Below, piece after piece: positions 9,078-55,543 of a stretch of 64,000 nt of DNA; the stretch's first letter is position 1; each line of letters starts with the position of its first letter. The stretch lies in IMG/VR virus record IMGVR_UViG_3300035670_000026, positions 1 through 64,000 of that record; one strand, 5' to 3'. This DNA is from a virus. The notes below the pieces were generated by a model, which ran no database searches, was not told where the DNA came from, and saw nothing but the letters and a program-made list of their open reading frames with translations. A program made the position numbers and the translations under genes.

Positions 9078-9080
9078 CAA

Positions 9081-9157: not shown

Positions 9158-9161
9158 ATTC

Positions 9162-9233: not shown

Positions 9234-9235
9234 CT

Positions 9236-9362: not shown

Positions 9363-9365
9363 TCT

Positions 9366-9438: not shown

Positions 9439-9474
9439 CAATAATTTTTCCAATATGTCTTTGTAATTGGTTAA

Positions 9475-30429: not shown

Positions 30430-31191
30430 ATGATTGGACTGATATCAATTTTAAAAGAAATTCAAGGCAAGCCAAAAGCAATTTTCATGGCAGGCCCTGC
30501 TGGTTCAGGTAAATCATTTATTTCTAAACAATTAGTACCTTCTAATTTTCAAACTATTAATGTAGATGATACCTATGAGGAATTACTTAAAACCTCAGGT
30601 ATTGGAATGAAGTTAGCTAAAATGTCGCCTGATGAATTAAAAAAAGCAGGTGAGTTAATGGGCCAAGCAAGAAAAACTACAGATATTAAATATAAAGAAG
30701 CATTAAAAAATGCTAACAATATTTTAATTGATAGTGTAGGAGGTTCCTCTAAAACCTTACTTAAGAAAAAACAAGAATTAGAAGACTTAGGTTACGATAC
30801 GGCAATGATAATGACTTATGTATCGCCTATTACCTCATTAGAACGTAATATGAAGCGAGATAGATCATTATTGCCGAGTATTGTGATTCGTTCTTGGCGC
30901 GACGTAAATAAAAATATAGACGTATATAAACAAGCATTTGGAAATAATTTTACAATAGTAGATTTAAATCCGGAAGATGCTAATAAGGAATTTGATGAAG
31001 AATTTATTTATAAAACTTACATTGAACCCTTAGGACAGGTAGGTAAAGAAAAATCACCTGAGGAATTAAAAAAATCTAAAGCAGAATCAGAACAAATATA
31101 TTCAGATATTAAACAATCTCTTAAATCACAACCTGATTTTGATACTAAAGAGCAAGCAAAAATAAAAATCACTAACTTTATACAATCATGA
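30430..31191 (+). CDS. P-loop kinase (zeta-toxin/AAA-type), possibly head cargo
   Basis: 253 residues. Walker A GPAGSGKS at 22-29 after the strand KAIFMA, a later NILIDSVGG (about 97-105) as Walker B, and an arginine-bearing segment ERNMKRDRSLLP. The fold matches zeta-toxin/T4 Pnk-type nucleoside or sugar kinases; the substrate is unknown. The N-terminus (MIGLISILKEIQGK) looks like a T4 capsid-targeting sequence with an L-x-E site at 8-10. First gene of a long run with such starts. Overlaps the next gene by 4 nt. Confidence 0.75.
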   Translation: MIGLISILKEIQGKPKAIFMAGPAGSGKSFISKQLVPSNFQTINVDDTYEELLKTSGIGMKLAKMSPDELKKAGELMGQARKTTDIKYKEALKNANNILIDSVGGSSKTLLKKKQELEDLGYDTAMIMTYVSPITSLERNMKRDRSLLPSIVIRSWRDVNKNIDVYKQAFGNNFTIVDLNPEDANKEFDEEFIYKTYIEPLGQVGKEKSPEELKKSKAESEQIYSDIKQSLKSQPDFDTKEQAKIKITNFIQS

Positions 31192-31586
31192 AATTAACCG
31201 ACTTATTAAACGAAGTAGAAAAAGAAGAAAAATCCGTTAAAGAAATGACTCCTGTTGTTGAAGCAGAAAGCATTCCTGTAGATGAGATTGGTAAATTCTT
31301 TATAGTTGAAAAACCAACCAAAGATTCAGAAATGGAAGACGTAGTATACGAATTAACGCTTCCTGAATTTGCTCTTCAAATTAAAGGTGGTTTAGAAATT
31401 AAAAATATTTTAGGTGTTTATAAACAAAAATCTGATGCTAATAGAGCTGGAACTGAAGCTATGAAAGCATATCAAGACACCCTTAAGGAAATGGAAGATG
31501 CTATGGAAGCTTTCCGTGCCGCTAAAAAAGATATTAAAGAGAAAAAAGCAGTTGCTAAAGAAAAAATTCAAAAACTTAAACAGTAA
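31188..31586 (+). CDS. Unknown protein with capsid-targeting-like N-terminus
   Basis: 132 residues. MKLTDLLNEVEKEE has an L-x-E site at residues 7-9. A middle beta-rich part (FFIVEKPTKDSEMEDVVYEL) is followed by a long charged C-terminal coiled-coil-like helix rich in Lys, Glu and Ala. No family recognised. One-base overlap with the following gene. Confidence 0.62.
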   Translation: MKLTDLLNEVEKEEKSVKEMTPVVEAESIPVDEIGKFFIVEKPTKDSEMEDVVYELTLPEFALQIKGGLEIKNILGVYKQKSDANRAGTEAMKAYQDTLKEMEDAMEAFRAAKKDIKEKKAVAKEKIQKLKQ

Positions 31587-33265
31587 TGAACTCCCTTACC
31601 AAAGTCTTATTAGAAGATGTTTTGGAGGCGGAGAAAAAGAAAGTAACCGCTATTTATGGAGGTGGATTTAAACCACCTACCAAAGGACATTATAATGTTG
31701 TACAAAAAGCAGCTGAGCAAAACCCTGAAATTGATGATTTTATCATTTTTGTGGGTGGGGGCGAGCGTGATGGTATTACTCAAGGTGAATCTATCCAGGT
31801 TTGGGAATTATATAAAAAATATCTTCCATTAAAAGTAAGGATTGAACCGGCAAAAGCACCAATAGGTGATATCTTAAAATATGCAAAAGAACACCCGGAT
31901 GAAGAAATACTTTGGGTAATAGGTGCTCGCGAAAATAATCCTGAAGATTTTGCAGATATTGCTTCTAGAACAAGAACAATAAATAAATATCCAAATTTAG
32001 AATTACGAGTTATTCAAACAGCAGGTGGTGTTAGTGGTACCGCTACTCGTAAAGCAATTAAAGATAATAATAAAGAACAATTCTTTCACCTCATTCCCGA
32101 TATTCCTGAAAAAGAACAAGTTTGGGACATTGTGTCTCCTGTTATTAAAGAAGGTTTTATGGGAGATATAAAATCTAAATTTAATAAATTTATATCTGCT
32201 ATTAAACAAGAAAACCAAGAAACTAAAGAGGTAGTTGGTTTATTGATTAAATCTGCTCAAGGTAAAATAGAATTAACAGATAAGGATAAAGAATATATAG
32301 GCAACCAATTAAAAGATGTTTTAAAATTAATTGGTTTAACGGCAATTGCTACTTTGCCTGGTGGGTTTATTGCTGCTGCTTTAATTAAATTATTTAAGGC
32401 CGAAGCATTAGTTACTCCATCTACTTTTGTAAATGAAGCAGATCCTAAAAAAGGAACAGGCAAAAAACCAAAAGGATCAGGCCGTAGATTATACACAGAT
32501 GAAGACCCAAAAGATACAGTAGGTATTTCTTTTAAAACAAAAGAAGATATTGTTGATACTTTAAATAAAAAATCATTTAAAGCTAAATCACATGCTCGTC
32601 AATCACAAATTATTAATTTAATACATCAACGAGTAAGAGCCGCTTATGGTAAAGCAAAAGATCCTGAGGTAAAAGCTCGTTTAAAAAGAGGATTAGATTA
32701 TATTGAATCACGTAAAGAGGCATCTAAAGAAAAAACTCAACGTTTAAAAAATTTAAAAGAGATAGTAACAAATACAGAAGTTATTTGTGATAATTGTGGT
32801 TGGAAATGGGATAAAGAAGATGGTGGAGATGATTTATATGTTTGTCATAAATGTGGACATGATAATACTCCAACTTCTTTAAAAGAAGGTTGGAATTTGC
32901 AAGATGCTTTTGTATCTTTATCAAAATTCATGATGGTTAATGGGATGAATATCACCCCATTACCTAAAATTAAAACTATACCAGATGATAAAGAAAATGC
33001 ATCTAATCTTTTAGGTAAAACGGCTTATTATAATCCAACCGAAAAGTCTATTACTTTGTTTACAATGGATAGACACCCAAAAGATATATTGCGTTCATTT
33101 GCTCACGAAATGGTTCATCATGAACAAAATTTAGAAGGAAAATTAAATAATATTAACACAACCAATACAAACGAGAACGGAGATTTGCCTGAAGTTGAAA
33201 GTGAAGCATACGAAAAAGGAAATATAATGTTGCGCAATTGGGAAGATTCAATTAAAAATGTATAA
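31586..33265 (+). CDS. Multidomain nucleotidyltransferase / DUF5824-like / zinc-ribbon / HExxH protein
   Basis: 559 residues made of distinct parts. Residues 20-165 are a cytidylyltransferase-like nucleotidyltransferase: GGFKPPTKGHY at 26-36 (HxGH-like) and VSGTATRKAI at 149-158 (ISSTxxR-like). Residues about 284-385 match a basic phage domain I recall as DUF5824 (KKGTGKKPKGSGRRLYTDED, then a helical R/K-rich part). A zinc ribbon follows (Cys401, Cys404, Cys420, Cys423). The C-terminus has HEMVHHEQ (507-514), a zinc-metallopeptidase-type HExxH. The N-terminus carries L-x-E sites, and FVNEA at 281-285 could be cut between domains. Substrate and peptidase activity are inferred only. Confidence 0.75.
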   Translation: MNSLTKVLLEDVLEAEKKKVTAIYGGGFKPPTKGHYNVVQKAAEQNPEIDDFIIFVGGGERDGITQGESIQVWELYKKYLPLKVRIEPAKAPIGDILKYAKEHPDEEILWVIGARENNPEDFADIASRTRTINKYPNLELRVIQTAGGVSGTATRKAIKDNNKEQFFHLIPDIPEKEQVWDIVSPVIKEGFMGDIKSKFNKFISAIKQENQETKEVVGLLIKSAQGKIELTDKDKEYIGNQLKDVLKLIGLTAIATLPGGFIAAALIKLFKAEALVTPSTFVNEADPKKGTGKKPKGSGRRLYTDEDPKDTVGISFKTKEDIVDTLNKKSFKAKSHARQSQIINLIHQRVRAAYGKAKDPEVKARLKRGLDYIESRKEASKEKTQRLKNLKEIVTNTEVICDNCGWKWDKEDGGDDLYVCHKCGHDNTPTSLKEGWNLQDAFVSLSKFMMVNGMNITPLPKIKTIPDDKENASNLLGKTAYYNPTEKSITLFTMDRHPKDILRSFAHEMVHHEQNLEGKLNNINTTNTNENGDLPEVESEAYEKGNIMLRNWEDSIKNV

Positions 33266-33791
33266 ACTAACCGATTTATATAAACAACTTAAAGAGGAAA
33301 CAACTGAAGATCCTCAATCACAATATAAAATTTATTGTGATATGGACGGTGTTTTAACTGACTTTGATAAACGTTTTGAACAATTTGGAGGTATGCCTCC
33401 TCAACAATTTGAAAAAGAAAAAGGTAAAGAACAATTCTGGAACCTTATTGATAAGCAAATAGGTGTTAAATTCTGGGCAGGGATGCCTTGGATGTCTGAT
33501 GGTAAAGAGTTGTGGAATCATATTAAACAATATAACCCAACTTTATTATCTGCTCCTTCACGTGAAAATGAATCGCGTTTAGGTAAACGTGTTTGGGTTA
33601 AAAATAACATTCCGGGTACTCCTTTAATTTTAGCAGCAGCTGAAAAAAAGAAAAATTATGCTCGAAAAAATGCAATACTTATTGACGACAGAGTATCCAA
33701 TATTAACGACTGGAATACAGCCGGAGGTATTGGAATTCTTCATACATCAACAACATCAACATTAGAAAAATTAGCAAAATATGGCCTTTAG
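33258..33791 (+). CDS. HAD-superfamily phosphatase (5'-nucleotidase-like)
   Basis: 177 residues. HAD motif I IYCDMDGVLTDF (25-36) with catalytic Asp28 and Asp30, motif II SAPS (about 98-101), and motif IV ILIDDRVSNI with the acidic pair. Compact size and C2-cap-less layout resemble deoxy-5'-nucleotidase-type HADs. The N-terminus MYKLTDLYKQLKEETTE fits the capsid-targeting-like group with an L-K-E site. It overlaps the previous gene by 8 nt. Confidence 0.82.
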   Translation: MYKLTDLYKQLKEETTEDPQSQYKIYCDMDGVLTDFDKRFEQFGGMPPQQFEKEKGKEQFWNLIDKQIGVKFWAGMPWMSDGKELWNHIKQYNPTLLSAPSRENESRLGKRVWVKNNIPGTPLILAAAEKKKNYARKNAILIDDRVSNINDWNTAGGIGILHTSTTSTLEKLAKYGL

Positions 33792-34104
33792 AAGAGTAGT
33801 AATTAGCGGAGAAAAAGTACAAGATACAAAAACAGATCTTGAAAACTTCCTTTCAAATAAAATATTCAAAACCAATTATCCAGGTATGAAAACTAAACTT
33901 ATAGTTTCACCAGTTAAAAATGATACTATTGTAATTGATTTGAATGGTGACGGTGCTGATACAGTAGCTAAAAAAGTTAAAGATATTGGACAAAAATATA
34001 AAATGAAAGCTGTTATCAAGCTTGAAAAACCAATGTCTGCTGTTAAAGAAGTTAAAGTTACAAAAACAAAATTAATTGAAATTATTAAAAATTTCAACAA
34101 ATAA
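33781..34104 (+). CDS. Small unknown protein
   Basis: 107 residues, basic, with a beta-alpha pattern (TKLIVSPVKNDTIVIDLNGD) that could be a ferredoxin-like fold. It overlaps the HAD gene by 11 nt and the next gene by one base. Here the LIEIIKNF helix is at the C-terminus. Function unknown. Confidence 0.62.
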   Translation: MAFRRVVISGEKVQDTKTDLENFLSNKIFKTNYPGMKTKLIVSPVKNDTIVIDLNGDGADTVAKKVKDIGQKYKMKAVIKLEKPMSAVKEVKVTKTKLIEIIKNFNK

Positions 34105-34676
34105 TGAATAACAATTCAGTTTTAAAAAAAGAGTTCAAACATAGAGATGTAGAACGTCTCCGTAATCTTGTCACGGGCAAGTACGGAGAAAAAACTACTA
34201 TGGGAACTGGTTATACAAAAGCAAAAGAATTTCACGATGAAGGCGATATTTGGGAAGAAGATGGTCGCACATGGACAATTAAAAATGGCGTAAAACAAAA
34301 TATTACAAAATTGGATAAGGCAAAAGAAGGTATTGTTTTACCTATTTTTTGTCCTTCTTGTTCTCGTACTATGAAACCTCATTTAGATAAAAGATGGTTT
34401 GTAATGTATGGACATTGCTTTGATTGTCAAGTAGATTTTGAACACGATCTTAGAAAACAAGGTAAACTTCAAGAATTTGAAAAACAAGTAACTAACCAAC
34501 ACTTAGAAGGAATGACTAAAGACTTTGAAGTTTGGTTTGATGAATTAATAAACGAAAAAAACCAATTTATCACTGAAAATGGTGATGTTGAAAAGTGGGA
34601 TGGTTCTGGGAAGGAACAGTTATTGAAATATAAACAAGAAGCACTAGAATATCTTAAAACACAGATTAAAGAATAA
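34104..34676 (+). CDS. Conserved phage zinc-binding protein
   Basis: 190 residues. A segment GDIWEEDGRTWTIKNGVKQN (about 48-67) precedes a zinc-ribbon pair CPSC (about 84-87) and CFDC (108-111), then a helical C-terminus. I recall this combination from many T4-like phage genomes, where its role is unknown. The basic N-terminus and zinc ribbon suggest nucleic-acid or protein binding. Confidence 0.7.
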   Translation: MNNNSVLKKEFKHRDVERLRNLVTGKYGEKTTMGTGYTKAKEFHDEGDIWEEDGRTWTIKNGVKQNITKLDKAKEGIVLPIFCPSCSRTMKPHLDKRWFVMYGHCFDCQVDFEHDLRKQGKLQEFEKQVTNQHLEGMTKDFEVWFDELINEKNQFITENGDVEKWDGSGKEQLLKYKQEALEYLKTQIKE

Positions 34677-35299
34677 TGGAAACTACTTTAATGATGGCCA
34701 CAACTATTATCGTTGCCCTAATTACAGCTGTAATTGGTCCCGCAGTATTAGAATGGGTTAGAGCAAAACTGAAAAAAACAGAAATTGAAGATAAAAAATC
34801 CCCAATAGATGAAGCCATTCATTTAAATACTCTAGTTGATGAACAATTAGATATTATAATAGAAGAACTAGGAGCTGATAGAGTGTGGGTAGCCCAATTT
34901 CATAATGGAGGACATTTTTATCCCACAGGCAAATCCATCCAGAAATTTTCTATATTTTATGAAAAAGTAGCTCCTGGGGCTGTTACTATCCAACATACAT
35001 TTCAAAATGTCCCTTGTTCATTATTCCCAAAAGCATTAGCTCAACTTTATAAAGAAGGTGAATTATCAATTCCAACATACGAGGAAGAAGATTACGATTT
35101 AACAGGCGTTTCATCACCATATGGTACTAAATCGTTTTATATGATTGCATTAGATGATTTACGTGACCATTTTATTGGTGTATTATCTATCGCTTATAAC
35201 AGAGAACATAAATTATCCAAAGAAGAATGGATATTTATACGACAGAAAGCAGGCGTTATTGGCACTTTGCTTGACGAGTACTTAAATAATAAAAAATGA
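34676..35299 (+). CDS. Membrane-anchored GAF-like domain protein
   Basis: 207 residues. One transmembrane helix (about 4-25, TLMMATTIIVALITAVIGPA), a charged linker, then a domain starting LGADRVWVAQFHNGGHFYPT (65-84) and ending in GVLSIAYNREHKLSKEEWIF. This beta-alpha-beta pattern with V-x-V-x-x-F-x-N-G near the start and G-V-L-x-I late is GAF-like, a ligand-sensing fold. No output domain. It sits in the head-cargo-like block, though a membrane anchor argues it acts in the cell envelope. Confidence 0.65.
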   Translation: METTLMMATTIIVALITAVIGPAVLEWVRAKLKKTEIEDKKSPIDEAIHLNTLVDEQLDIIIEELGADRVWVAQFHNGGHFYPTGKSIQKFSIFYEKVAPGAVTIQHTFQNVPCSLFPKALAQLYKEGELSIPTYEEEDYDLTGVSSPYGTKSFYMIALDDLRDHFIGVLSIAYNREHKLSKEEWIFIRQKAGVIGTLLDEYLNNKK

Positions 35300-35514
35300 A
35301 ATTTAGATTAGGACCTTTAGAAAATGCTAGAACCTTTTATTCACCAAAAGGTAATACAACTGTAGTTAGGGACACGGTTGTAAATCAAACTCCACCCCCC
35401 CAACCCGAAACTTTACCCGAACCAGAAATTGAGGTTGTAATGAGTGGTGAACCAACATTAGAAATCTTAGCAGAAGAAACTCCTGCTCCTAAAAATATAA
35501 AATCTAAAAAATGA
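35296..35514 (+). CDS. Small Pro/Glu-rich protein, unknown
   Basis: 72 residues, low complexity: a proline run (TPPPQPETLPEPEIE) and a basic tail KNIKSKK. Overlaps both neighbours by 4 nt, which supports translation. Probably unstructured. Confidence 0.55.
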   Translation: MKFRLGPLENARTFYSPKGNTTVVRDTVVNQTPPPQPETLPEPEIEVVMSGEPTLEILAEETPAPKNIKSKK

Positions 35515-36866
35515 AAGACTTAAAGAAAATACAAGAATTTTTCTCTAATCCTTTAGAAGAAGAAAAATCATTCACAGACTATTCAAATAATGAGCTTTTA
35601 GCATACTATAAAAATACTAAAGATCCTAAAGCAAAGGGAGAATTAAATAAACGTGCTGAAAAAATTAAAGCTTTAACTAGAACAGATGTTAATGAAGCTG
35701 GGACAGGTGTTGATATGGCTAAAAAGCAATTAGATGCTTTAGGTGTTAAATATGAAATGTCAAAAACTGATAAAGTTAGACCATTCAAAGTAATTCACAA
35801 ACCAGTTAATAAATCAGATGAATTTTATGATAAATTTGAAGATATTGTTGATTTATTTAACTTAAAAGGTGTTGTAAAATCAGAAGCAGGATATGATTAT
35901 TCTTCATTTAAAGAATCAGTAAACGAACAAGCTGATCATGTATCTCCAATGGTGGTGAAAGCTTACAAAGAATACCTCCAAGCTAAAAAAGATGGGGATG
36001 GAGAAAAAGCATATCGCTACTATTCTAAAAAACTAAATAACACATACTCTACCAGAGCAGATAGAGATGCTATTGAAGCTATCTTAAAAAAGAAATATGG
36101 TAGTGCTTTTGACATTAAAGAATCAGTAAACGAACAAGAAGAAGATGCCGTTGATACAATTACAATGGATATTCCTTTATTCCTTCGTATGTTAGAATAT
36201 GCTAGAGAAGATGCTCAAAAAGACCTAGATTTACATGATGTTACCGAAAAAGCAAATAAATTAGGTAAAGAAAGAGGTATCTTATCTATGGAAGATTATG
36301 AAGAAATTGTAGGTGCTGCTGAAGAAATTGATGAAGCAGAATTAACCGAAGCTTATGTTCCTTCAAACATTAAAGACTTTGCTAAAAGAAAAGGTGTATC
36401 TTCTTTAGTTAATAAAGTAGCTGGTTGGGCTGAAAAAGTAGGTAAAAGAATTACTGGTGGAACTGCCATTGGATATAATTATTCCACTCTTATTTTAGAT
36501 ATGGAATACCAAGGTTCAGAAATTCGTATTAATACAGATAATGATACAATTGAGTTGTATGGTGAACCTGTTAGAAGTTTTAATGATTTTCAACGTGTAT
36601 ATATTGATGGGCAAGATGATAATATAGAAGAAAATGTTGCTCCTAATCACGATGGAAAAGCAGCACCTTATGGTTCTGGATACAAACCTTTAGAAGAAAA
36701 AATTGCTAAAGCATTAGACCAAATTAACGAAGAATTATGTCCCGCTGGTAAAGCATACATTAAAAGAAGATTAGCTGCTGGTGAAAAATCATCTGCTTAT
36801 CTTTCAGGCCGTGCCGTTAAAGTATGTAAAGGACAAATGTCTGGTACCTCTAAAAAGAAAAAATAA
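35511..36866 (+). CDS. Repetitive putative head-cargo protein with repeated (I/F)KESVNEQ sites
   Basis: 451 residues. Two near-identical cut-site-like segments, SFKESVNEQADHV (about 133-145) and DIKESVNEQEEDAV (about 201-214), separate different helical regions; LPLEE-like and LTEA sites occur as well. The last 40 residues (LCPAGKAYIKRRLAAGEKSS, then AYLSGRAVKVCKGQMSG) form a basic Cys-containing tail. The layout suggests a polyprotein cut by the prohead protease at V-N-E. No enzymatic motif. One-base overlap with the next gene. Confidence 0.65.
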   Translation: MKDLKKIQEFFSNPLEEEKSFTDYSNNELLAYYKNTKDPKAKGELNKRAEKIKALTRTDVNEAGTGVDMAKKQLDALGVKYEMSKTDKVRPFKVIHKPVNKSDEFYDKFEDIVDLFNLKGVVKSEAGYDYSSFKESVNEQADHVSPMVVKAYKEYLQAKKDGDGEKAYRYYSKKLNNTYSTRADRDAIEAILKKKYGSAFDIKESVNEQEEDAVDTITMDIPLFLRMLEYAREDAQKDLDLHDVTEKANKLGKERGILSMEDYEEIVGAAEEIDEAELTEAYVPSNIKDFAKRKGVSSLVNKVAGWAEKVGKRITGGTAIGYNYSTLILDMEYQGSEIRINTDNDTIELYGEPVRSFNDFQRVYIDGQDDNIEENVAPNHDGKAAPYGSGYKPLEEKIAKALDQINEELCPAGKAYIKRRLAAGEKSSAYLSGRAVKVCKGQMSGTSKKKK

Positions 36867-37156
36867 TGGACATTAATAGACTACAAGAAATAATTTCCGA
36901 ATCTTTACGTGACTGGTTTAAAAAAGAAGACTGGGTGCGCATTGATACTCAAGGTAATATTACTGGTCCTTGTGGTACTATGAAAAAAGGTGATGCTACA
37001 ACTCGTTGTTTGCCTCGTAAAAAAGCTCAATCATTATCTAAAGCTGAAAGAGCTAAAACTGCTCGTAAAAAAGCCGCTGGTTCTCGTAAAGGAAAACAAT
37101 TTGTAAAAAACACAAAAAAAGCAGAATACAAAAAAGGTACATACCAGAAAAAATAA
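36866..37156 (+). CDS. Very basic small phage protein
   Basis: 96 residues. An N-terminal helix MDINRLQEIISESLRDWF with an I-S-E site precedes WVRIDTQGNITGPCGTM, CLPRKKAQSLSKAER and a Lys/Arg-rich tail. This W-V-R-I-x-x-x-G-x-I-x-G-P-C-G-T, then C-L-P-x-x-K-A pattern is a conserved small phage family of unknown role. The strong positive charge fits DNA binding inside the head. Confidence 0.72.
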   Translation: MDINRLQEIISESLRDWFKKEDWVRIDTQGNITGPCGTMKKGDATTRCLPRKKAQSLSKAERAKTARKKAAGSRKGKQFVKNTKKAEYKKGTYQKK

Positions 37157-37158
37157 CA

Positions 37159-37166
37159 TATTTATA
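37159..37166 (+). promoter_or_regulatory. TATTTATA late-type motif
   Basis: Within AACATATTTATAACATA, 16 nt before the 754-residue protein gene. Confidence 0.55.
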
Positions 37167-37182
37167 ACATATACTTAATAAA

Positions 37183-39447
37183 ATGGCAAAATTTGACTTT
37201 AAAAAAGCAATCCTAGAAAATAAAGCTACCTTTTTTGGTTCATTAAACGAAGGTCAATTTTCTTGGTTTACTCAAGATACAGATCAACAAATTGGATCAG
37301 AACCAGAAAATACTCTTCCTTTTGTTTACATGCACGATAATAAAGGCAATAAATGGTTAGAAAAAAATTATGATGGATATGGTGAATTTGGTGGTAAAGA
37401 TTACTATGAATTACTAGACCAAATGAATGGTGGTGATGGTGATAGAAGTAGAGGTATTGATTTAGCTTTTGATAAAGAAGCTGTTGCTACTGGTAAAATA
37501 TTATTTCCAGCACTAACTGTTAGTGCAACATTACCTTCATACCATAGTTTTAATGAAGAACCAAAAAATGACCCAAACCAATCTTGGTATACTCCTGAAG
37601 AGGATGATTTTTATGATCAAAATGATGAAGAGGAATATGGATATGATGAGGATTATGACGAAGAAGAATTAGATGAAGCAGAATTGCCTGTTTTAACTGC
37701 TGATCAAGTTAAAATGATTGCTCAACAAGTAGCAGATAAATTTTCTGCAACAGATGATTTAGATATTAAATTTTTAACCACCCCAGGTTCAGTTGAAGCT
37801 GACCCTAAAGGAGCAGGATTTGATCTTGATACAATTGCAGGACCAAACACCCCCGGTGACGATTGGAAAGATGAAAATGGATTTACTATTGACAATTATT
37901 TAGGTAAATACGCTGGTGGTTCTTATTATATTAAACCTGAAGGCGGTAAACATAAGATTTATAACGCCGCAGCACAGAATGCTTATATTGGACACGTTAC
38001 TCCTCAAGGTGAGGTAGTATTTGAAATTCCTGGTTTCGAAGGAACTATAGATCAATTAAACTTTCTTGAAGAAGAAAAACCAAAAACAAAAATGAAAAAA
38101 TCAGAATTAAAAGAACTTATTAAGTCATCTATCATGAACGAAGTGTATCTTGATATTGACAACATGGAAGATGCTCCTGAATCAGAAGTTGATTTCTTAG
38201 CAGAAGTTGATGCTATTTTAGCTGAAGCTGATAAAGTAAAAGAAGGTGTATGGTCAGTAGTACCCGCTCGTATCCCTGAATTTATTAAGGCCATTGAAAA
38301 TATCAAAGAAGAATACCACGGTATTGTAGGTAGTGATGATGTATACAATGGGTTAGATGCTGCCATTTCAGCTGCAGAAGAATTATTAATGAATACTGCA
38401 GAAATTAACGAAGCAGACGAAGAAGTAGCAGTAGATGATACTGAAGTAGCAGTTGATGGTGAAGAAAATATTAATGTTGATACAACAATAGAAGTTGATC
38501 CTAATGTAAAAGCAGTTCAAGATTCATTAACACAAGCTCAAGCAGCTGCTCAAAAATTAGGTGATCCTAAATTAACAGATCAAATCGGTAATACAATTAC
38601 ATTCTTTACTCGTGCACACGTTGTAGATAAAGGTGCTGTAGCTGAAGAATTAAATGAAGTAAAATCACTCTTATTTTCGTTTGATTACAATACAGATGAA
38701 GATGATGTGGACTACATCCAAGGTTTATTAAAAGATGCTAGAGTTAATGCGATTGCGCAACCTGGTCTTGAATCAGGCGAAATGATAGTTAAAGCAAAAA
38801 ATGAAGTTGAATTGCGTAAAGCTAAAAAAGTAATCCAAGCAAATGGATTTAAAATCTATAAATCAGTAGAGGAAGGTAAAGAAATGGTAAATGAAGATTT
38901 AGCATCAGCTCTTACAGCGCTTATAATTTCTATAATAGCCATCCCAGCTTTACCAATAACTGGAGCATTATTAATGGGATTAATTGACTATCTATTTAAT
39001 GACTTACCTGATCAAAGAGCTGAAGCAAAATCATTAAGATCATACAAGGGACCTGATAAGCAAGAAAAAGTTTTAGCTTTAGCTAAAGAAATTGAAGCTA
39101 AATTATCCCCAGGTAAAAAGAGATACTTAAAAACATTAGTTAATCGTATTGGTGCTTCTAAACTTGAAGACAAAGCTAGAGAATACCGCGAATTAGATAG
39201 ATATGCTTCATCCGAAAAATCTCGAATGGATCGTGGATTAAATGAAAATCTAAAAACTGATATTGAATCTGCTCTAGAAGATCTTCCTATTCCAACCAAT
39301 ATGGAAGAAGATAAAAAAGAATATTACAAAGATGCTGAATCAGATGATGCGGCACATATTAACGCATTAGAAAAAGACATGAAAGATGATAAAAAATCAT
39401 CAATGAATGAAGTTATGTTTCCAATGTTAAAAAGAATTTTAAAATAA
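37183..39447 (+). CDS. Large acidic putative head-cargo polyprotein
   Basis: 754 residues, strongly acidic. Residues around 295-310 read KTKMKKSELKELIKSSIMNE, an internal copy of the capsid-targeting-like helix, so the protein looks like two or more units joined. Cut-site-like I/L/M/V-x-E elements occur at SLNEGQ (near the N-terminus), ELDEAE, IMNEVY, ILAEAD, EINEAD, ELNEVK, MVNEDL, GLNENL and SMNEVM. One hydrophobic segment (about 575-595, LTALIISIIAIPALPITGAL) could cross or touch a membrane. No enzymatic motif. It has its own late-type motif. Confidence 0.65.
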   Translation: MAKFDFKKAILENKATFFGSLNEGQFSWFTQDTDQQIGSEPENTLPFVYMHDNKGNKWLEKNYDGYGEFGGKDYYELLDQMNGGDGDRSRGIDLAFDKEAVATGKILFPALTVSATLPSYHSFNEEPKNDPNQSWYTPEEDDFYDQNDEEEYGYDEDYDEEELDEAELPVLTADQVKMIAQQVADKFSATDDLDIKFLTTPGSVEADPKGAGFDLDTIAGPNTPGDDWKDENGFTIDNYLGKYAGGSYYIKPEGGKHKIYNAAAQNAYIGHVTPQGEVVFEIPGFEGTIDQLNFLEEEKPKTKMKKSELKELIKSSIMNEVYLDIDNMEDAPESEVDFLAEVDAILAEADKVKEGVWSVVPARIPEFIKAIENIKEEYHGIVGSDDVYNGLDAAISAAEELLMNTAEINEADEEVAVDDTEVAVDGEENINVDTTIEVDPNVKAVQDSLTQAQAAAQKLGDPKLTDQIGNTITFFTRAHVVDKGAVAEELNEVKSLLFSFDYNTDEDDVDYIQGLLKDARVNAIAQPGLESGEMIVKAKNEVELRKAKKVIQANGFKIYKSVEEGKEMVNEDLASALTALIISIIAIPALPITGALLMGLIDYLFNDLPDQRAEAKSLRSYKGPDKQEKVLALAKEIEAKLSPGKKRYLKTLVNRIGASKLEDKAREYRELDRYASSEKSRMDRGLNENLKTDIESALEDLPIPTNMEEDKKEYYKDAESDDAAHINALEKDMKDDKKSSMNEVMFPMLKRILK

Positions 39448-39453
39448 AAGTAT

Positions 39454-39624
39454 ATGAACACACAAGAAATTTTCGAAAAAATTGAAGCTTTATATGAATT
39501 ATTCAAAGCAGAACATGCTGGAAAATCAAAAGCCGCTCATGGTCGCGCTCGCAAAGCATTAGGTGAAATCAAAAAATTGGTAGCCGAATACAGAAAAGCG
39601 TCAATCGATGAAGATAAAAAGTAA
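39454..39624 (+). CDS. Histone H1-like protein Hc1
   Basis: 56 residues. The sequence MNTQEIFEKIEALYELFKAE, then SKAAHGRARKALGEIKKLVA and EYRKASIDEDKK, follows the Hc1/histone H1-like proteins of Flavobacteria and Chlamydia: an N-terminal helix, a K-A-A-x-x-R-A-R-K-A-L core and a basic tail. It would bind and compact DNA. It lies in the putative head-cargo block and overlaps the next gene by 17 nt. Short but very convincing by pattern. A role in packaged DNA or in the host nucleoid is open. Confidence 0.82.
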   Translation: MNTQEIFEKIEALYELFKAEHAGKSKAAHGRARKALGEIKKLVAEYRKASIDEDKK

Positions 39625-40966
39625 TTTAACTGAAAAGAAGCTTACTAAAGCTGAATTAGAGGCAAGAGAAAAAGTAATTAAAGACTTAAAAAAAAATAAG
39701 TCTGCTCTTGTTAAACGCTACGGCAAAGATGCTGAAGCAGTTATGTATGGACGTGCAACAAATATAGCTAAAAAAATGGCAGAATCAGAAAATAAAAATC
39801 GCATTAAAGAGCTTGTTAAAAAATCTCTTATGCAGGAAGCCGACATCGAAGTAGATGCCGATAGATATGAAGGTGAACAAGAACTAAGTCAAGCATCTGC
39901 TATGTTGGATGATTTAGAAACCAAATTAAACAACCATGATTGGTTTTATATGATGGCTGATGACAATAGAGCTTACACTTCTGGTTCAGCTAAAGAAAGA
40001 GAAATTCGTGATTTAATTTCTAAACTAGAATCTATGGGTTATGGAAAAGAAGCAAAAGATATGTACAATGAAAAAGAACCATATTCAAAAGCTTTTGGTC
40101 GTGATTCTAAATTAAAAGAAGCTAAAGGTAAAGATATGGATAAAGATGGCGATATCGATTCAGACGATTACTTAGCTGCCCGCGATGCTGCTATTAAAAA
40201 GGCAAAAGGCGAAATAAAAGAAGATTGGGGTAGTTCAGATCAATCTATTATGAACCAAGGAATTCATAAAGATTTAGGTAATCCTACAGAATTTCCTTCT
40301 CCATTTGATCCTAAATTTGAATCAGCAGTTGAATCAGCTGTAGATTTTTATTGGGATGAATGGCCTGAATATAGAACAGATAGAGATGGTCTTATAAATC
40401 ATGCTAAAAAACTTTACTACAGAGCTTATTTTCCTGAAAAATTTGAAGGATTTATGAAAATGTTTGGTGAAAGTTTAAATGAAGATATCGATTTAGGTCA
40501 CCAAGATAATGAACCACATATGATTAAAGGCGAATTATACCATATAGGTAAATACGCTATGAAGTTATATGCTATTATGGAAGAATTAGAAGAAGCAGGT
40601 GGTGAATATGACCTTCCAGCTTGGTGGCAGTCAAAAATTACTACTGCTAAAAATATGATGTCAAGTGCTAAACATTATCTTGATTTCGAATTAAAAGAAC
40701 CAGCAATTGATGCAGCCGTTGATGCTTTAACAGGTGAAGAACCTCATATGGGTGAACCAATGATGGAAGCAGAAATTAGTGCTGAAGAAAAATTAGCAGG
40801 TAAAATTGCTAAAGCACTTAAGGATATAGCTAATAAAGATGCTTCTGATCAAAGTAACCTTAAACAAGCTAGAACAGCTTTAAATAAAGGTAATATTGAA
40901 GCTGCTAAAAAAATTGCAAAACCTTATATAGCTGAAAAATTAGCTAAGCAATTAAAATCTAAATAA
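39608..40966 (+). CDS. Putative head-cargo protein with multiple cut-site-like motifs
   Basis: 452 residues. The N-terminal KLTKAELEAREKVIKDLKKN, then LVKRYGKDAEAVMYGRATNI, is a domain seen in phage virion proteins. Cut-site-like elements occur at KMAESE, LMQEAD, KLKEAK, EIKEDW, SLNEDI and MMEAEI. The stretch DMDKDGDIDSDDY resembles a calcium-binding dockerin/EF-hand loop. The rest is helical and charged. Overlaps the histone-like gene and, by one base, the next gene. Confidence 0.65.
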   Translation: MKIKSNLTEKKLTKAELEAREKVIKDLKKNKSALVKRYGKDAEAVMYGRATNIAKKMAESENKNRIKELVKKSLMQEADIEVDADRYEGEQELSQASAMLDDLETKLNNHDWFYMMADDNRAYTSGSAKEREIRDLISKLESMGYGKEAKDMYNEKEPYSKAFGRDSKLKEAKGKDMDKDGDIDSDDYLAARDAAIKKAKGEIKEDWGSSDQSIMNQGIHKDLGNPTEFPSPFDPKFESAVESAVDFYWDEWPEYRTDRDGLINHAKKLYYRAYFPEKFEGFMKMFGESLNEDIDLGHQDNEPHMIKGELYHIGKYAMKLYAIMEELEEAGGEYDLPAWWQSKITTAKNMMSSAKHYLDFELKEPAIDAAVDALTGEEPHMGEPMMEAEISAEEKLAGKIAKALKDIANKDASDQSNLKQARTALNKGNIEAAKKIAKPYIAEKLAKQLKSK

Positions 40967-41445
40967 TGAAAAAAAGCGAATTAAGAGATAAAATTAAAAT
41001 GCTTGTACAAAAAACGTACAAAGCTAAGACCATTGATTTAGATAAAGGTGGTGAAGTTACTCTTGACGCTGAAAAATTTCCTGTTTTAACAAAATTTCCT
41101 AAACTAAAAAAAGTAATCGTAGATCTATTAACAGATCAATACGAAGTTTTTATGACCAATATTGAGTGGGTAGCACCACGACCAACAACTTTCCGAATTA
41201 TACTTGGTAACGATGAAAACTTTTTGTTGATTTATACCGATAGAAGCTGGATTGCTCAGGTTGAAGGTAAAAAGTATTATTTGTTAAACCTCGGCGAAGA
41301 AGAGCAAGCAGCCGAATCTATTTCAAGATTATTAGCATATGGCCAAAAAACAGAAACCAGCACCGAAACCAGCTCAGAAGCCGGTTCCGAAGAAACAGGG
41401 CAAGAAGAAGTAACAGCTTCCTCTGAAGAAGAAACTACAACTTAA
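40966..41445 (+). CDS. Unknown protein with capsid-targeting-like start and acidic Ser/Thr tail
   Basis: 159 residues. MKKSELRDKIKMLVQ is an amphipathic helix like those of the neighbours; residues about 50-125 are a compact alpha/beta part (WVAPRPTTFRIILGNDENFL); the last 35 are Glu/Ser/Thr-rich and unstructured. No family recognised. Two bases separate it from the next gene. Confidence 0.62.
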   Translation: MKKSELRDKIKMLVQKTYKAKTIDLDKGGEVTLDAEKFPVLTKFPKLKKVIVDLLTDQYEVFMTNIEWVAPRPTTFRIILGNDENFLLIYTDRSWIAQVEGKKYYLLNLGEEEQAAESISRLLAYGQKTETSTETSSEAGSEETGQEEVTASSEEETTT

Positions 41446-41447
41446 TT

Positions 41448-42566
41448 ATGAATATATTTGATAAACTTATCAAAGAAATTTCTTATAAATTTCCAAAAGG
41501 ATATCTTGACATCGATGATGCTCAAGATGTTCTTTTTTTCCAATCAATATTAGAGTCAATAGGTATTGAACTTTATAATTCTATTTTAATTAACGAAGCT
41601 GCCGAAGATATCAAAAATGAACTTATTGATGCGGGTTATACTCCTGAAGACATTATTGTAAAAAGTAGTAAACAAATTCGTTTATTAACTAAAGGAAATG
41701 AACGTAAATCTACAATGGATAAATTGTTAAAAGATTTAGAAGGTTCACGTTACGATATAAATTTTAAAGGTTCATCCTTAGGTGCTATCATAGCAGATGA
41801 TGGGACAGCAATTATTGTTAAACCAAAAGAAAGACAAGGTGGTTTATCTGCTGGTTTAGATAATGAACAAATGCTTGTAGATAGCATAAACCAATATACC
41901 CAAGATGACCCAATCAACATCAGATTTAAAGGAATAAATAAATCTGTATCTTACAATGATGTTGCTTCAGCTAAATCTGTAGGTGCAGATACAGCAGGTG
42001 GTAAAAAAGCAGATGTTCAATTATTAGATAAAAGTGGTAGTGTTATAGCAAATATTTCTCTTAAAAAAGCAAACGCTGAAATGTGGGAAAGTGCTGATAG
42101 ACGTTATAAAAATTTAATGCTTAAATTATCTGAAAAACTTTTAGATAGCCCATTTCCAAATGTTGCTTTAAGAACAACAGATAAAAAAGATATATATCGT
42201 TTATATAACCCAGCAACCGGAACAGATTTAGGAGGTCTTGTAATTACAGATTTACCAGACAATGAAAATGAATCTATTGTATTTGGTACTGATAATCCAA
42301 AAACAATAGTTATCAAACATACTTTCCAACCTTCAGATTTTAGCTTTAATAAATCTATACTAACAATAGATTCAGGTACTATTTTTACTGATTTAAAAGA
42401 TATTGAAGGAACAAAATACGAACCTATATTAGTAATTAGACACGATGTAACTCGTACTGCAACTAATGGTTTACGTCCTATTGTTTATAATGCTTCTCAT
42501 GCTTATAAAGACGGTAAATTAGCTGGGGGGAGAACAGAGTTAACTTATAATGAAGCAATAAAATAA
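41448..42566 (+). CDS. Putative PD-(D/E)XK-like nuclease with capsid-targeting-like start
   Basis: 372 residues. It opens MNIFDKLIKEISYKF, with an I-K-E site. A central region GADTAGGKKADVQLLDKSGS, then VIANISLKKANAEMWESADR contains the spacing D-x(11-13)-S-x-K typical of restriction-like nuclease cores (Asp in KADV, Lys in SLKK). This pattern is known in phage proteins; nuclease activity is an inference. If packaged, it could act on host DNA at injection. Confidence 0.62.
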   Translation: MNIFDKLIKEISYKFPKGYLDIDDAQDVLFFQSILESIGIELYNSILINEAAEDIKNELIDAGYTPEDIIVKSSKQIRLLTKGNERKSTMDKLLKDLEGSRYDINFKGSSLGAIIADDGTAIIVKPKERQGGLSAGLDNEQMLVDSINQYTQDDPINIRFKGINKSVSYNDVASAKSVGADTAGGKKADVQLLDKSGSVIANISLKKANAEMWESADRRYKNLMLKLSEKLLDSPFPNVALRTTDKKDIYRLYNPATGTDLGGLVITDLPDNENESIVFGTDNPKTIVIKHTFQPSDFSFNKSILTIDSGTIFTDLKDIEGTKYEPILVIRHDVTRTATNGLRPIVYNASHAYKDGKLAGGRTELTYNEAIK

Positions 42567-42568
42567 AA

Positions 42569-42576
42569 TATTTATA
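42569..42576 (+). promoter_or_regulatory. TATTTATA late-type motif
   Basis: Within AAAATATTTATAAATATG, only 3 nt before the next start codon, so an mRNA starting downstream of it would be leaderless. Confidence 0.5.
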
Positions 42577-42579
42577 AAT

Positions 42580-43227
42580 ATGTGTGGCTGCGGATGTAAT
42601 ACTTGTGATACTAAAAAATCTGTGCTTATGCTTAATGAAAGTATAGCACCGCGTGGGATATTGTCTGAAGGTCTTAAATACCATATAGACAATAATAGAC
42701 CGCTTACTGAACAGACTTATCGTGCTGGTTCATCAAACTATTTTAACTTGTGGGCTGAAGCTCGCTCATTTTATTCTCGTGAAATTATTGAAGTTACAAA
42801 CGAGGATGATTTAGCTATCTTAACCGAAACCAATTTAGGTGAATATGGTACATTAGAAGATGGTACTCGTGTTCCTTTAGATTTTATTATGGAAGATGTT
42901 TATCTTGATTTAAATGAAAATTTAGATGAAGCTAAAAAATCACAAAAGAAAGATCCACCAATTGGAAAACCAATGCGTGATTCATCAGGTGGTAAAGCTT
43001 ATAAAGTATACGTTCGCGATCCTAAAACCAAGAAAATTAAAACAGTACGTTTTGGTTCAGGTGGTTTAAAAGCTAAAATCAATAATCCTAAAGCACGTCA
43101 AGCATTTGCTAAACGCCATAAGTGTTCAACACGTAATGATAAAACAAAAGCTTCTTACTGGTCTTGTCGCTTGCCTCGTTACGCTAAATTGTTAGGATTA
43201 AAATCATCTTTTTCAGGATTTTGGTAA
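42580..43227 (+). CDS. Cys-rich N-terminus, basic phage domain protein
   Basis: 215 residues. It begins with a striking cysteine cluster MCGCGCNTCDTKK, followed by LNES and LSEG sites. The C-terminal 90 residues (KPMRDSSGGKAYKVYVRDPK, then FAKRHKCSTRNDKTKASYWS and CRLPRYAKLLGL) are a basic domain I recall from structural or core proteins of T4-like marine phages. Possibly DNA-binding inside the head. Its stop overlaps the next start. Confidence 0.68.
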   Translation: MCGCGCNTCDTKKSVLMLNESIAPRGILSEGLKYHIDNNRPLTEQTYRAGSSNYFNLWAEARSFYSREIIEVTNEDDLAILTETNLGEYGTLEDGTRVPLDFIMEDVYLDLNENLDEAKKSQKKDPPIGKPMRDSSGGKAYKVYVRDPKTKKIKTVRFGSGGLKAKINNPKARQAFAKRHKCSTRNDKTKASYWSCRLPRYAKLLGLKSSFSGFW

Positions 43228-43556
43228 TGATAAAATTATTAAATATATTAAATGAAGCAAAAAAAGTAAAAGAAACTTTTGAAAATTTTGCTGAAAAAAG
43301 AGGCGAGGGTGCTGCTAAAATAGCTAAAACCGCAGAGGAAAAAGGTGGTTTAGCACTTTTAACTTGGCATCATTTTAAAGTTAAAGCTCCCTATTATAAA
43401 AAAGCAACTGAAGGTAAATTTGATAAAGAAGCTGCCAAAAAAGAATTTGAGAATACATTAAAAAGTATTTCATTAAACATGACTCCAATTGAATTTCAAA
43501 GAGAGGTTGGTCGTTTAGAGGTACTAGGTGAATTATTAATTAGAGATAAAAAATAA
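43227..43556 (+). CDS. Small helical protein with capsid-targeting-like start
   Basis: 109 residues starting MIKLLNILNEAKKVKETF with an L-N-E site at 8-10, then basic helices. The ATG at 43227 overlaps the previous stop (TAATG) and is preferred over an upstream TTG. Length and pattern recall T4 internal proteins. No family recognised. Confidence 0.62.
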   Translation: MIKLLNILNEAKKVKETFENFAEKRGEGAAKIAKTAEEKGGLALLTWHHFKVKAPYYKKATEGKFDKEAAKKEFENTLKSISLNMTPIEFQREVGRLEVLGELLIRDKK

Positions 43557-43559
43557 ATT

Positions 43560-43997
43560 ATGAATACATTTGATTTAAGAAGATATTTAGTTGAAGGTAA
43601 ATTATATGAAGCAGCAATGGCTTGTCCTTTACCTACTCAAGATTTAGAACTAAACACCAAAAATAGAGACTCAGCTATCAAAGCAGATTATATTAAATAT
43701 GGTCCTTTAAATGTTGATGAACCTGGAGATTTTTGGGACGAATTAGCTGAACACTGGGATACAACAGTTGAAGCAGCTAAACAATCACTTTGTGCAAATT
43801 GCGCTGCTTTTGATATTTCTCCTAGAATGGATGATTGTATGCCCGGTCCTTTATCTGATGAAGATGGAAGATTAGGATATTGCTGGATGCATAGTTTTAA
43901 ATGCCATTCAGCCCGTACTTGTAGAACATGGGCTAAAGGTGGTCCTATTGTAAAAGATACTATTTCTTACGAGTGGCAAGAACGTAAAGGAGAATGA
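43560..43997 (+). CDS. Cys-rich conserved phage protein with cut-site-like N-terminus
   Basis: 145 residues. MNTFDLRRYLVEGKLYEA carries an L-V-E site and resembles the start of the gene at 44251. The C-terminal part has a cysteine pattern CANCAAFD, C, GYCWMHSFKCHSARTCRTW, suggesting a metal or iron-sulphur centre. This Cys pattern is found in other marine T4-like phages; I recall it labelled high-potential iron-sulphur-like, without proof. Confidence 0.65.
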   Translation: MNTFDLRRYLVEGKLYEAAMACPLPTQDLELNTKNRDSAIKADYIKYGPLNVDEPGDFWDELAEHWDTTVEAAKQSLCANCAAFDISPRMDDCMPGPLSDEDGRLGYCWMHSFKCHSARTCRTWAKGGPIVKDTISYEWQERKGE

Positions 43998-44254
43998 AAC
44001 CCTATAAAGACATAGAAGTTAATAACAAGTATGTTATTAGAGAATTTAGCGAAAACATTGACCCAATAGAGTTAATGTGGCATCGCGATGATGAAGATAG
44101 AACAGTTGAAATAATTGGTAAAACTGATTGGCAACTTCAATTAGATAATCAATTACCAACTTCTATAAATCAACCTATATTTATACCTCGACACGAGTGG
44201 CATCGCGTTATTAAAGGAACAGGTACACTTACATTAAAGATACACAAATCATGA
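43994..44254 (+). CDS. Small cupin-like protein
   Basis: 86 residues, a single small beta-barrel. WHRDDEDRTVEIIGKTDWQL and IFIPRHEWHRVIKGTGTLTL carry the cupin-type histidines (H-R-D, then P-R-H-x-W-H). Cupins of this size bind metals and small ligands. It overlaps both neighbours by 4 nt. Substrate unknown. Confidence 0.7.
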   Translation: MKPYKDIEVNNKYVIREFSENIDPIELMWHRDDEDRTVEIIGKTDWQLQLDNQLPTSINQPIFIPRHEWHRVIKGTGTLTLKIHKS

Positions 44255-44862
44255 AATCAATAGATACATTTGATTTAAGAAAATTTATAACTGAAGGACA
44301 GTTAGAAAAAAACTTACAAGAAGTTGATATTAACTTAGATGATAAAGAACAATCCGTAGTTGATGATGTAAAAGACGAAATGTCTGATATATTAAAAACT
44401 ATGGATACTGAATTAGCTAAAGCATCTGAATCTACCAATGAAGGTTTATTAACTGTAGCTAGTATTGCTATTGCATTACCTGCTATTATGGGACTAATTG
44501 CTAAATTTGGTAAAGCAGCGGGTAATATGGTTAATAAAGTTTTAGGTAAAAAACCAACAGACCAAGATGCTTATCAACAATGGATGACTAAATTAGGTCA
44601 TATTGCTGATGAATTACATCATTTGTATATGGCTCCAATTGAATCAATTGTTAAAAAATTTGTTAAAGATCCTGTAAAAGCTAAAAACGTATCAAGTGGT
44701 ATTTTTCACGTAATTGTAGCAACATTTTTAATAGCATCAGGAGCAACAGCCGTAAAAGCTTTACAATCTAAAAACTTATCTTTAGCAACTTTAGAAGGCG
44801 CTTTAAGTGCTATTAAAGGGGGAGAATTAAAACAATTTATCTCAGGACTAATTAGAGTTTAA
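44251..44862 (+). CDS. Putative head-cargo protein with hydrophobic helices
   Basis: 203 residues. TFDLRKFITEGQLEKN near the N-terminus matches TFDLRRYLVEGKLYEA of the gene at 43560, with an I-T-E site. Two hydrophobic stretches (about 64-84 LLTVASIAIALPAIMGLIAK; 150-170 GIFHVIVATFLIASGATAV) could insert in a membrane after injection. No family recognised. Confidence 0.62.
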   Translation: MKSIDTFDLRKFITEGQLEKNLQEVDINLDDKEQSVVDDVKDEMSDILKTMDTELAKASESTNEGLLTVASIAIALPAIMGLIAKFGKAAGNMVNKVLGKKPTDQDAYQQWMTKLGHIADELHHLYMAPIESIVKKFVKDPVKAKNVSSGIFHVIVATFLIASGATAVKALQSKNLSLATLEGALSAIKGGELKQFISGLIRV

Positions 44863-48469: not shown

Positions 48470-48871
48470 ATGAAAAAATCAGAAGCTAAAGAATATATTA
48501 AAGAACTTATTATTTCTGAATTAACAGAAGTTGATACCGATAAAACTCGTGGTACTGTAGTAATGCCTAAAGCAGCTAACCCACAAGATATTAAAAAAAT
48601 GACTGATCAAGGTGTTGATGTAGAATTAAAAGAAGAAGAAGAAGATATTGAACCAACTGCAAAAGATATTGCAGCTAATGCTTCAATTGCTAAACTACAA
48701 TCTAAGTATAGTGAAGTAGTTAAACAAATGAAATCAGTAGTAAATAAGTACAAATCAGCTGAAGGTACTGAAAGACAAAAATATGTTGATCAATTAAAAG
48801 GTTTAACTAAGCTTAAAAAAGAATTAGAAGCTATGATTAATCCTTCTCTTGATGACGAAGATCAAGATTAA
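48470..48871 (+). CDS. Small helical protein with capsid-targeting-like start
   Basis: 133 residues. MKKSEAKEYIKELIISELTE is an amphipathic helix with I-S-E and L-T-E sites; the remainder is charged helix with a C-terminal DDEDQD. It belongs to the same N-terminal group as the 30-45 kb block and stands at the head of the head-morphogenesis operon. No family recognised. Confidence 0.62.
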   Translation: MKKSEAKEYIKELIISELTEVDTDKTRGTVVMPKAANPQDIKKMTDQGVDVELKEEEEDIEPTAKDIAANASIAKLQSKYSEVVKQMKSVVNKYKSAEGTERQKYVDQLKGLTKLKKELEAMINPSLDDEDQD

Positions 48872-54934: not shown

Positions 54935-55543
54935 ATGAAAACACTACAACAAGAATATCAACTTATAAAAGAGGGAAAAGGTAATAAAGACCATTTCCTT
55001 AAAATGGCTAGAAATATGTTTCCTGAATATATTGCTCATGGAAATGATTTTAATGCTGCTGTATCTATTTTAAAAAGTAAAAGTCTTTTAAGTGAAGCAG
55101 TAGGTGGTGTAGTAACTTTATCAACTCAACCTAACTGGTTTAAAATCTTTAATGATAATATTGCTGAAGCAGTAGGTGTTAAAGATAAAAAAGAGTATGG
55201 TGATCAAAATACATTTGAAAAAATTGATAAAGATGTAGCTAAAGATTTAGCAAATCAATTTGATAATAATAACCCTAAAAATATTGATAACCTTTATGGT
55301 CAATCATTTTTATTAGGTTATTTAACAGAAATGGGTGATCCTAAAAATGCTAAAAAAACAGTTGATGAATTAAAAGATATTGTAGCTAAAAACATGGCTA
55401 AAGATATCAATTACTACCATACAAATGCTTCATTCGGTGTTAAAGGAATTGGATACACTAAAGATTCAGTTGGAATGGGTGAACCTAAAGCACTAAAAGG
55501 AAAATATAAATCAAGTGGCTACGGCGATTTAGATAAAAAATAA
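54935..55543 (+). CDS. Conserved head-region protein with capsid-targeting-like start
   Basis: 202 residues. MKTLQQEYQLIKEGKGNKDH is close in form to the start of T4 internal protein III (M-K-T-Y-Q-E-F-I-A-E-A), with an I-K-E site. FLKMARNMFPEYIAHGNDFN and the C-terminal GYGDLDKK are conserved in marine T4-like phages. Likely packaged in the prohead core. Located beside the protease gene. Confidence 0.66.
   Translation: MKTLQQEYQLIKEGKGNKDHFLKMARNMFPEYIAHGNDFNAAVSILKSKSLLSEAVGGVVTLSTQPNWFKIFNDNIAEAVGVKDKKEYGDQNTFEKIDKDVAKDLANQFDNNNPKNIDNLYGQSFLLGYLTEMGDPKNAKKTVDELKDIVAKNMAKDINYYHTNASFGVKGIGYTKDSVGMGEPKALKGKYKSSGYGDLDKK

Follow-up and report, generated by a model that had tools for sequence, protein, structure and literature searches.

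The 64,000-nucleotide stretch analysed in the present study (the window) covers positions 1 to 64,000 of the virus record IMGVR_UViG_3300035670_000026 of IMG/VR, which is 149,817 bp long. Between positions 30,430 and 44,862 it contains a block of genes, most of which probably form a cargo cassette of a T4-type myovirus (we put the probability at about 0.8). The products would be targeted to the prohead by short N-terminal tags and processed by an S77-family prohead protease, a homologue of T4 gp21, in a greatly expanded version of the T4 system. Strong and independent sequence evidence supports the core of this reading, namely T4-type capsid-targeting tags that a gp21-type protease cuts: the tags are shared, are swapped between cargoes, include a copy of the scaffold end, co-occur with S77, and are accompanied by an LVTE site in the major capsid protein (MCP) and by the residue register of T4 internal protein III (IPIII).

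An initial annotation of this DNA proposed T4-like targeting and gp21 cutting for at least ten proteins of the block and for several of the head operon, since they start with an (I/L/V)xE motif. The motifs it quoted are present in the genes named, which are designated here by their start positions (LLNEV in 31188, LKEE in 33258, IISES in 36866, LIKEI in 41448, ILNEA in 43227, LVEG in 43560, ITEG in 44251 and LIKEG in 54935), and the motifs in the head-operon proteins 48470, 54935, 55547 and 56375 were also seen. Within the first 20 residues, 14/19 open reading frames (ORFs) of the block have (I/L/V)xE, compared with 41/153 other ORFs of the same phage of approximately 150 kb (p=9e-5). The values for the first 15 residues are 12/19 and 26/153 (p=4.5e-5), and those for a stricter hydrophobic-(I/L/V)-x-E in the first 15 residues are 9/19 and 9/153 (p=9e-6). 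This excess is specific to the N-termini, because internal 20-residue segments have the motif at equal rates in block proteins (25.2%) and other proteins (24.5%). However, approximately 5 of the 14 hits are expected by chance, and several genes lack the motif: 33781, 34104 and 35296 do not have it at the N-terminus, that of 34676 lies as far in as residue 26, and the N-terminus of 40966 is class B-like (see below) but lacks xxE. Thus, the sequence evidence upholds the core of the proposal, but not every gene of the block is tagged. The bare motif was rejected as sufficient evidence, since 25% of any 20-residue segments carry it.

Stronger evidence came from tag families that the initial annotation did not describe; it also left out the likely cargo polyproteins and the tagged genes elsewhere (108583 and 143213). 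ORFs were called in the genome of the window, Flavobacterium phage vB_FspM_immuto (Immutovirus; immuto below), a Microcystis phage and 240 IMG/VR loci, and the 3,505 proteins were clustered on residues 41 onward, that is, on their bodies. N-terminal 36-residue segments were common to different body clusters in 554 pairs (score >=50), compared with 44 for control segments at residues 37-72 and 41 for the last 36 residues. The shared segments fall into four classes: A, NFDLKKYLxE(N/G); B, MKKSELKxLIKEE; C, FKRMQKLAGIITE; and D, MIKLxDILKE. They are about 10-18 residues long and amphipathic, with (I/L/V)xE at the end. Hidden Markov models (HMMs) of the tags were trained without the genome of the window (held-out); their matches lay at N-termini in 69/70 cases for class A, 206/211 for class D and 123/144 for class B, and shuffled proteins gave 0-3 matches. 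In the genome of the window, the HMMs recognised 6/19 N-termini of the block compared with 5/153 elsewhere (p=2.7e-4), marking 30430, 31188, 40966, 43227, 43560, 44251 and 48470, weakly 37183 and, outside the window, 108583 and 143213. Gene 143213-143743 encodes a class A-tagged protein of 176 amino acids (KADNFDSSKWLVENKITTQSRLNE) distant from the head genes. Among the 39 class D tags, which come from 27 body clusters, I2, L4, I/L7, L8 and E10 are nearly invariant, and the terminal Glu is found in 38. In a blind scan of IMG/VR, MIKLxDILKE was N-terminal in 130/131 matches listed and preceded at least 60 distinct cargoes; a scrambled peptide gave 6 matches vs at least 120. Four different proteins (41448-42566, L054 17259, L025 17336 and L083 8187) share a longer module at their N-termini, of the type DKILxEWSFRCxxGxxDxNN, which might be a fifth tag of larger size.

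Similar bodies bear different tags, and therefore the tags are modules separate from the cargo folds. The body of 44251 has a class A tag in the window, class C in L053 (88% identical) and class B in immuto; near-identical cargo can bear different tags in different phages. The body of 43560 has class A in the window and class D in relatives. Relatives of 31188 have class D or class B, and those of 42580 have class B tags, for example MDLKKLIKEAL, on the same body. The Zeta-like kinase 30430 has relatives with class D, class A or no tag. The class C tag of the Acb1-like protein 108583 is replaced by class D in the L437 relative.

The class C tag suggests a link between the cargo and the prohead. 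In relatives and in the window (ARWQTLAGIKK), the same peptide forms the C-terminus of the protein encoded directly ahead of the MCP; in the window, the terminal stretch of this scaffold-position protein with the predicted cut after Glu is PILEVNDQFARWQTLAGIKK. The Glu of an (I/L/V/M)xE lies exactly 7 residues ahead of the peptide in 65/90 distinct scaffold ends, and with a site at this fixed distance the peptide would be removed in scaffold and cargo alike. When IMG/VR was scanned blind with the class C peptide RMQKLAGI, 65 matches were C-terminal, 14 N-terminal and 1 internal (scrambled control, 2 matches). The same search in bacterial genomes was discarded: it gave 42 scattered matches, mostly in short frames or internal, with two scaffold-like C-termini. 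In the MCP, the Glu of the predicted site NQAKQ(L/I)(V/I)xE is kept in 51/51 distinct relatives; the T4 MCP propeptide has 65 residues, and the E60 site in the window is near this. Furthermore, every one of the 17 contigs of at least 91 kb that two tag peptides retrieved encodes S77, compared with 3/12 random contigs (66-343 kb) picked with an arbitrary 14-mer (p=2e-5). The head-operon protein 53833-54687 contains EDNTIASNSGFISGGEGENHTG, which resembles the MCP segment right behind the predicted cut site (ENNTISSNSSFVSNGQGENWAG). In 50 pairs of the two segments, same-genome pairs had 9.9 matches of 22 and cross-genome pairs 7.1, and this protein may be another head component that shares its mature N-terminal arm with the MCP.

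The identical class C peptide at the scaffold end also fits an alternative in which the tags serve in assembly or docking and hold the proteins in the prohead core as scaffold parts, mostly to be degraded and not delivered. In addition, 31188, 37183, 39608 and 35511 are acidic or xxE-rich, like core proteins. We consider this explanation unlikely, as the cargoes include folded, conserved enzymes for which no core function is apparent (kinase, nucleotidyltransferase, HAD, Acb1-like, exonuclease, thioesterase), and one tag is common to approximately 60 unrelated bodies.

In other cases the cargo is fused. To score such fusions, stand-alone tag/cargo boundaries were mapped onto fused relatives, and (I/L/V)xE was found within 3 residues of homologous module starts in 151/287 cases, compared with 46+/-6 expected from random positions in the same proteins. 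Contig-edge truncations had distorted a first form of this junction test (881/2951 vs 704 expected), and the version with tagged subjects was used in its place. Residues upstream of the junctions are 9-17% identical and Asn is enriched 4.6-fold at P2; since the identity of 1.00 at P1 arises by construction, P2 and the low upstream identity are the informative values, and they indicate that a cleavage-type site was kept and the old tag was not. The domain of 40966 is the C-terminus of the immuto protein gp079 (841 amino acids), where a class B-like tag precedes it, and the counterpart of 36866 in L070 and L047 is fused behind a second tagged module. Several distinct effector domains occur in one polypeptide in 31586 and in a tagged fusion of kinase and nucleotidase in L417. 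In 31586, xxE sites at residues 10/14, 189, 284, 392 and 434 lie in low-confidence breaks of the AlphaFold 2 (AF2) model (9-14, 186-195, 274-315, 389-398 and 429-436), and the module behind site 284 has a stand-alone tagged homologue. The junction in L417 has no (I/L/V)xE, so the rule is not followed by every fusion. These observations suggest that the fused proteins joined at (I/L/V)xE sites may be cargo polyproteins.

The C-terminal HExxH...ExE module of 31586 (invariant H507, E508, H511, H512, E538 and E540) might itself free the fused cargo in place of S77, as release by embedded metallopeptidases was proposed for the polyvalent proteins (PMC5512222). The junctions, however, show gp21-type (I/L/V)xE matching the tag ends of stand-alone relatives, and self-release appears a little less probable still than the retention of tagged proteins as scaffold parts. 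The polyvalent proteins of Iyer et al. 2017 (PMC5512222) are similar in that they are multi-domain effectors thought to be packaged and injected, and an HExxH-like module is found here as well; in contrast, the junctions here carry sites of the prohead-protease type, and single modules with a tag are found as well.

The tags could also be some other shared leader, such as a membrane-binding amphipathic helix, a translation leader or a stability tag. They are indeed short and amphipathic, and two N-termini were modelled as helices, but such a leader leaves the near-invariant terminal Glu (38/39 in class D), the scaffold copy and the S77 co-occurrence unexplained, and we regard it as very improbable. 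That chance or ordinary amphipathic N-terminal helices produced the pattern, a view for which the 25% frequency of the bare motif could be cited, is contradicted by the shared-tag statistics and the scrambled controls and is scarcely credible.

For comparison with T4, residues 1-10 of IPIII are enough for targeting, positions 4 and 7 acting in targeting and 8 and 10 in processing, and the motif of the T4 prohead protease is (L/I)xE (PMC9026906). Class D has the register M-I-K-L4-x-D-I7-L8-K-E10, with hydrophobic residues at 4, 7 and 8, an acidic residue at 6 and Glu at 10, as in T4 IPIII; the T4 starts are MKTYQEFIAE in IPIII and MAKINELLRE in gp24. An E-to-D exchange in T4 IPIII prevents the cut and leaves targeting intact. 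In the system of IPI, IPII, IPIII, Alt and gp21, as in the present one, proteins that are otherwise unrelated start with a propeptide of about 10 residues, and both systems have a cognate S77 protease and (I/L)xE. The bodies of the T4 internal proteins are themselves variable, and T4 Alt is an injected enzyme. In contrast to T4, at least four tag sequences without detectable similarity to those of T4 are used here, on a much larger number of cargo families; the scaffold C-terminus is copied by one tag, and fused cargo has apparent internal cut sites. In SPN3US and phiKZ, the cleavage motifs are AxE and SxE (PMC5694885). Many head proteins of these phages are likewise ejected after propeptides are cut behind Glu by a gp21-related protease; however, a tag set swapped across dozens of unrelated bodies is not described there (PMC5694885). 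No earlier description of such a tag system was found in the literature searched, which mostly excluded subscription papers and bioRxiv.

Several points weigh against the cargo cassette. The bare (I/L/V)xE is a short and weak motif. The tag HMMs gave no meaningful score on T4 IPI-III, Alt or gp24, and T4 homology of the tags by HMM was rejected for lack of a detectable score; thus, the likeness to T4 lies in the register only, and the tags are proposed to act like those of T4, with no claim of homology. No internal-protein family was found among the Pfam or PHROG matches of the window proteins. Class B is the least specific class, because its HMM also matches the terminase N-terminus (49453) and 15682 among the baseplate genes. 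When 80 tagged proteins from different clusters, chosen on their tags, were aligned, near-invariance was limited to the initial Met, one Leu and one Glu. The tag density, 3.3 of 21 genes in cargo-region loci vs 0.5 of 20 near the MCP, speaks for the cassette but is partly a contrast by construction, since the cargo-region loci were fetched through cargo homology. Some orthologues have no tags. No virion proteomics was found, and the single paper found on the host LMO8 mentions neither immuto nor mass spectrometry.

The large terminase (49453-51021) starts with DLRNIIREEY, similar in relatives; this is probably a class B false positive, although it could be a docking helix. The small protein 15682-16026 starts with MKTTELKNLIKEAVKEAIQEE, with a class B-like start at the same place in immuto, and may be a coiled-coil protein or, unexpectedly, a tagged one.

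The genes of the block and of the head operon are listed in Table 1.

Table 1. Genes of the block and head operon in the window (↓, predicted cut; bits, score of the tag HMM)
Feature	Coordinates	Strand	Evidence
P-loop kinase, Zeta-toxin-like; class D-type tag MIGLISILKE↓I	30430..31191	+	Pfam Zeta_toxin 5.7e-9; tag D 6.6 bits held-out
Small protein; class D tag MKLTDLLNE↓V	31188..31586	+	11.7 bits
Putative cargo polyprotein: N-terminal helix, NMNAT/CoaD-like nucleotidyltransferase, further modules, C-terminal HExxH metallopeptidase-like module	31586..33265	+	
HAD 5'-deoxyribonucleotidase, NT5C-like, behind YKLTDLYKQLKE↓E	33258..33791	+	phrog_2643 2.2e-30 from residue 21
Multi-module protein, N-terminus MKDLKKIQEFFSNPLEE, many internal VNE/INE sites	35511..36866	+	
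Small basic protein behind INRLQEIISE↓S	36866..37156	+	
Acidic multi-site protein, weak class A start FDFKKAILE↓N, internal class B tag at residue 304	37183..39447	+	
Multi-site protein	39608..40966	+	
Domain with class B-like start MKKSELRDKIK, cleavage site not clear	40966..41445	+	
Candidate effector behind IFDKLIKE↓I, second site LINE↓A at residue 50	41448..42566	+	phrog_12709 5e-33
Protein with LMLNE↓S	42580..43227	+	
Conserved small protein; class D tag MIKLLNILNE↓A	43227..43556	+	20.5 bits held-out; 70 homologues
Cys-rich protein; class A tag MNTFDLRRYLVE↓G	43560..43997	+	30.3 bits held-out
Hydrophobic helical protein; class A tag DTFDLRKFITE↓G	44251..44862	+	29.5 bits held-out
Acidic protein; class B tag MKKSEAKEYIKELIISELTE↓V	48470..48871	+	
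Conserved head-operon protein, start TLQQEYQLIKE↓GKG	54935..55543	+	60 homologues; start similar among matches listed
S77 prohead protease (gp21 homologue)	55547..56152	+	PF03420 4.3e-31; phrog_207 1.7e-56
gp22-position scaffold between protease and MCP; ends PILE↓VNDQFARWQTLAGIKK, class C peptide	56375..57535	+	
Major capsid protein gp23; predicted cleavage NQAKQLVTE60↓N	57570..59330	+	phrog_138 5e-71

The initial annotation had named a kinase, a nucleotidyltransferase, a HAD phosphatase, a possible nuclease and basic proteins as cargo. The matches of 30430 and 33258 agree with the first and third of these, the nucleotidyltransferase was recovered in 31586 by Foldseek (best 1.2e-6, to NadD), and a small basic protein is encoded by 36866. 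A homologue of 33258 in L157 carries the tag MIKLLDILKE. The nuclease was not confirmed: the AF2 model of 41448 (predicted local distance difference test score 86, with a break at 43-49) gave no significant match in a fold search against PDB (best E 0.45), and thus its nuclease function is unproven. The invariant E140, D189 and K206 of this protein, in a PD-(D/E)XK-like arrangement, serve as a lead only. Tagged proteins of relatives include an RNase T-type exonuclease, a thioesterase, kinases and weakly ADP-ribosyltransferase-like proteins. Outside the window, 108583-109146 (L004 4583-5146) encodes a class C-tagged Acb1-like 2H phosphoesterase, which matches phrog_755 (the phage 'RNA ligase' family; 8.5e-11) and, just under the cut-off, Pfam Acb1 (1.3e-5). 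It retains both HxT motifs seen in T4 57B, which is established as Acb1. Its tag suggests that an anti-CBASS activity may be delivered by the virion.

The head genes are arranged in a T4-like order (terminase 49453, portal 51050, S77 protease 55547, scaffold-position protein 56375 and MCP 57570). The nearest match of the MCP among phage records is that of immuto, with 65% identity, and immuto has a syntenic cassette placed between exonuclease and terminase. Both phages have S77 and the scaffold C-terminus, and immuto has class A, B and C tags by HMM plus a class D-like start; the two differ in that immuto joins some domains which are encoded apart in the window, and vice versa. The tagged products of immuto are gp095, gp094, gp092, gp083, gp080, gp077 and gp076, and its putative polyproteins are gp088, gp084 and gp079. 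With the full class A and class C tags as queries, immuto was the sole match among 50,697 phage records. Elsewhere in the window, 26 tRNA genes are clustered at 3895-9439.

The tags, their swapping, the S77 co-occurrence, the scaffold identity and the junction sites are read directly from the sequence, and from these we infer core binding, cleavage, packaging and injection of the cargo. Cargo proteins carry a putative capsid-targeting tag at the N-terminus, drawn from a set of at least four that are interchangeable. These tags would bind the prohead core, one class through its copy of the scaffold's C-terminal peptide. Once the shell is assembled, S77 would cut behind the Glu, so that the cargo is freed and the tag discarded, and fused cargo would be split at internal (I/L/V)xE to yield individual effectors. 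When the DNA is ejected, the mature proteins would enter the host with it. With odds slightly better than even, a large clade of T4-type aquatic phages uses such modular delivery, with a scaffold-mimic tag, dozens of enzyme families, polyproteins cut in the capsid in a Gag-Pol-like manner and delivery of an Acb1-like anti-CBASS enzyme. The claim is directly testable, since the same cassette occurs in an isolate, immuto, whose host is Flavobacterium sp. LMO8.

If this is true, the short tags would provide a sequence rule for recognising head-delivered effectors in uncultured phages; the scan with one tag alone gave at least 60 distinct cargo families, and clear annotation was rare among those examined. 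A feature of T4 would be extended to a large group of aquatic phages, targeting through a copied scaffold end would be suggested, and cargo polyproteins cut by the head protease would be demonstrated. Furthermore, predictions would follow for early counter-defence, for example by a virion-delivered Acb1-like enzyme.

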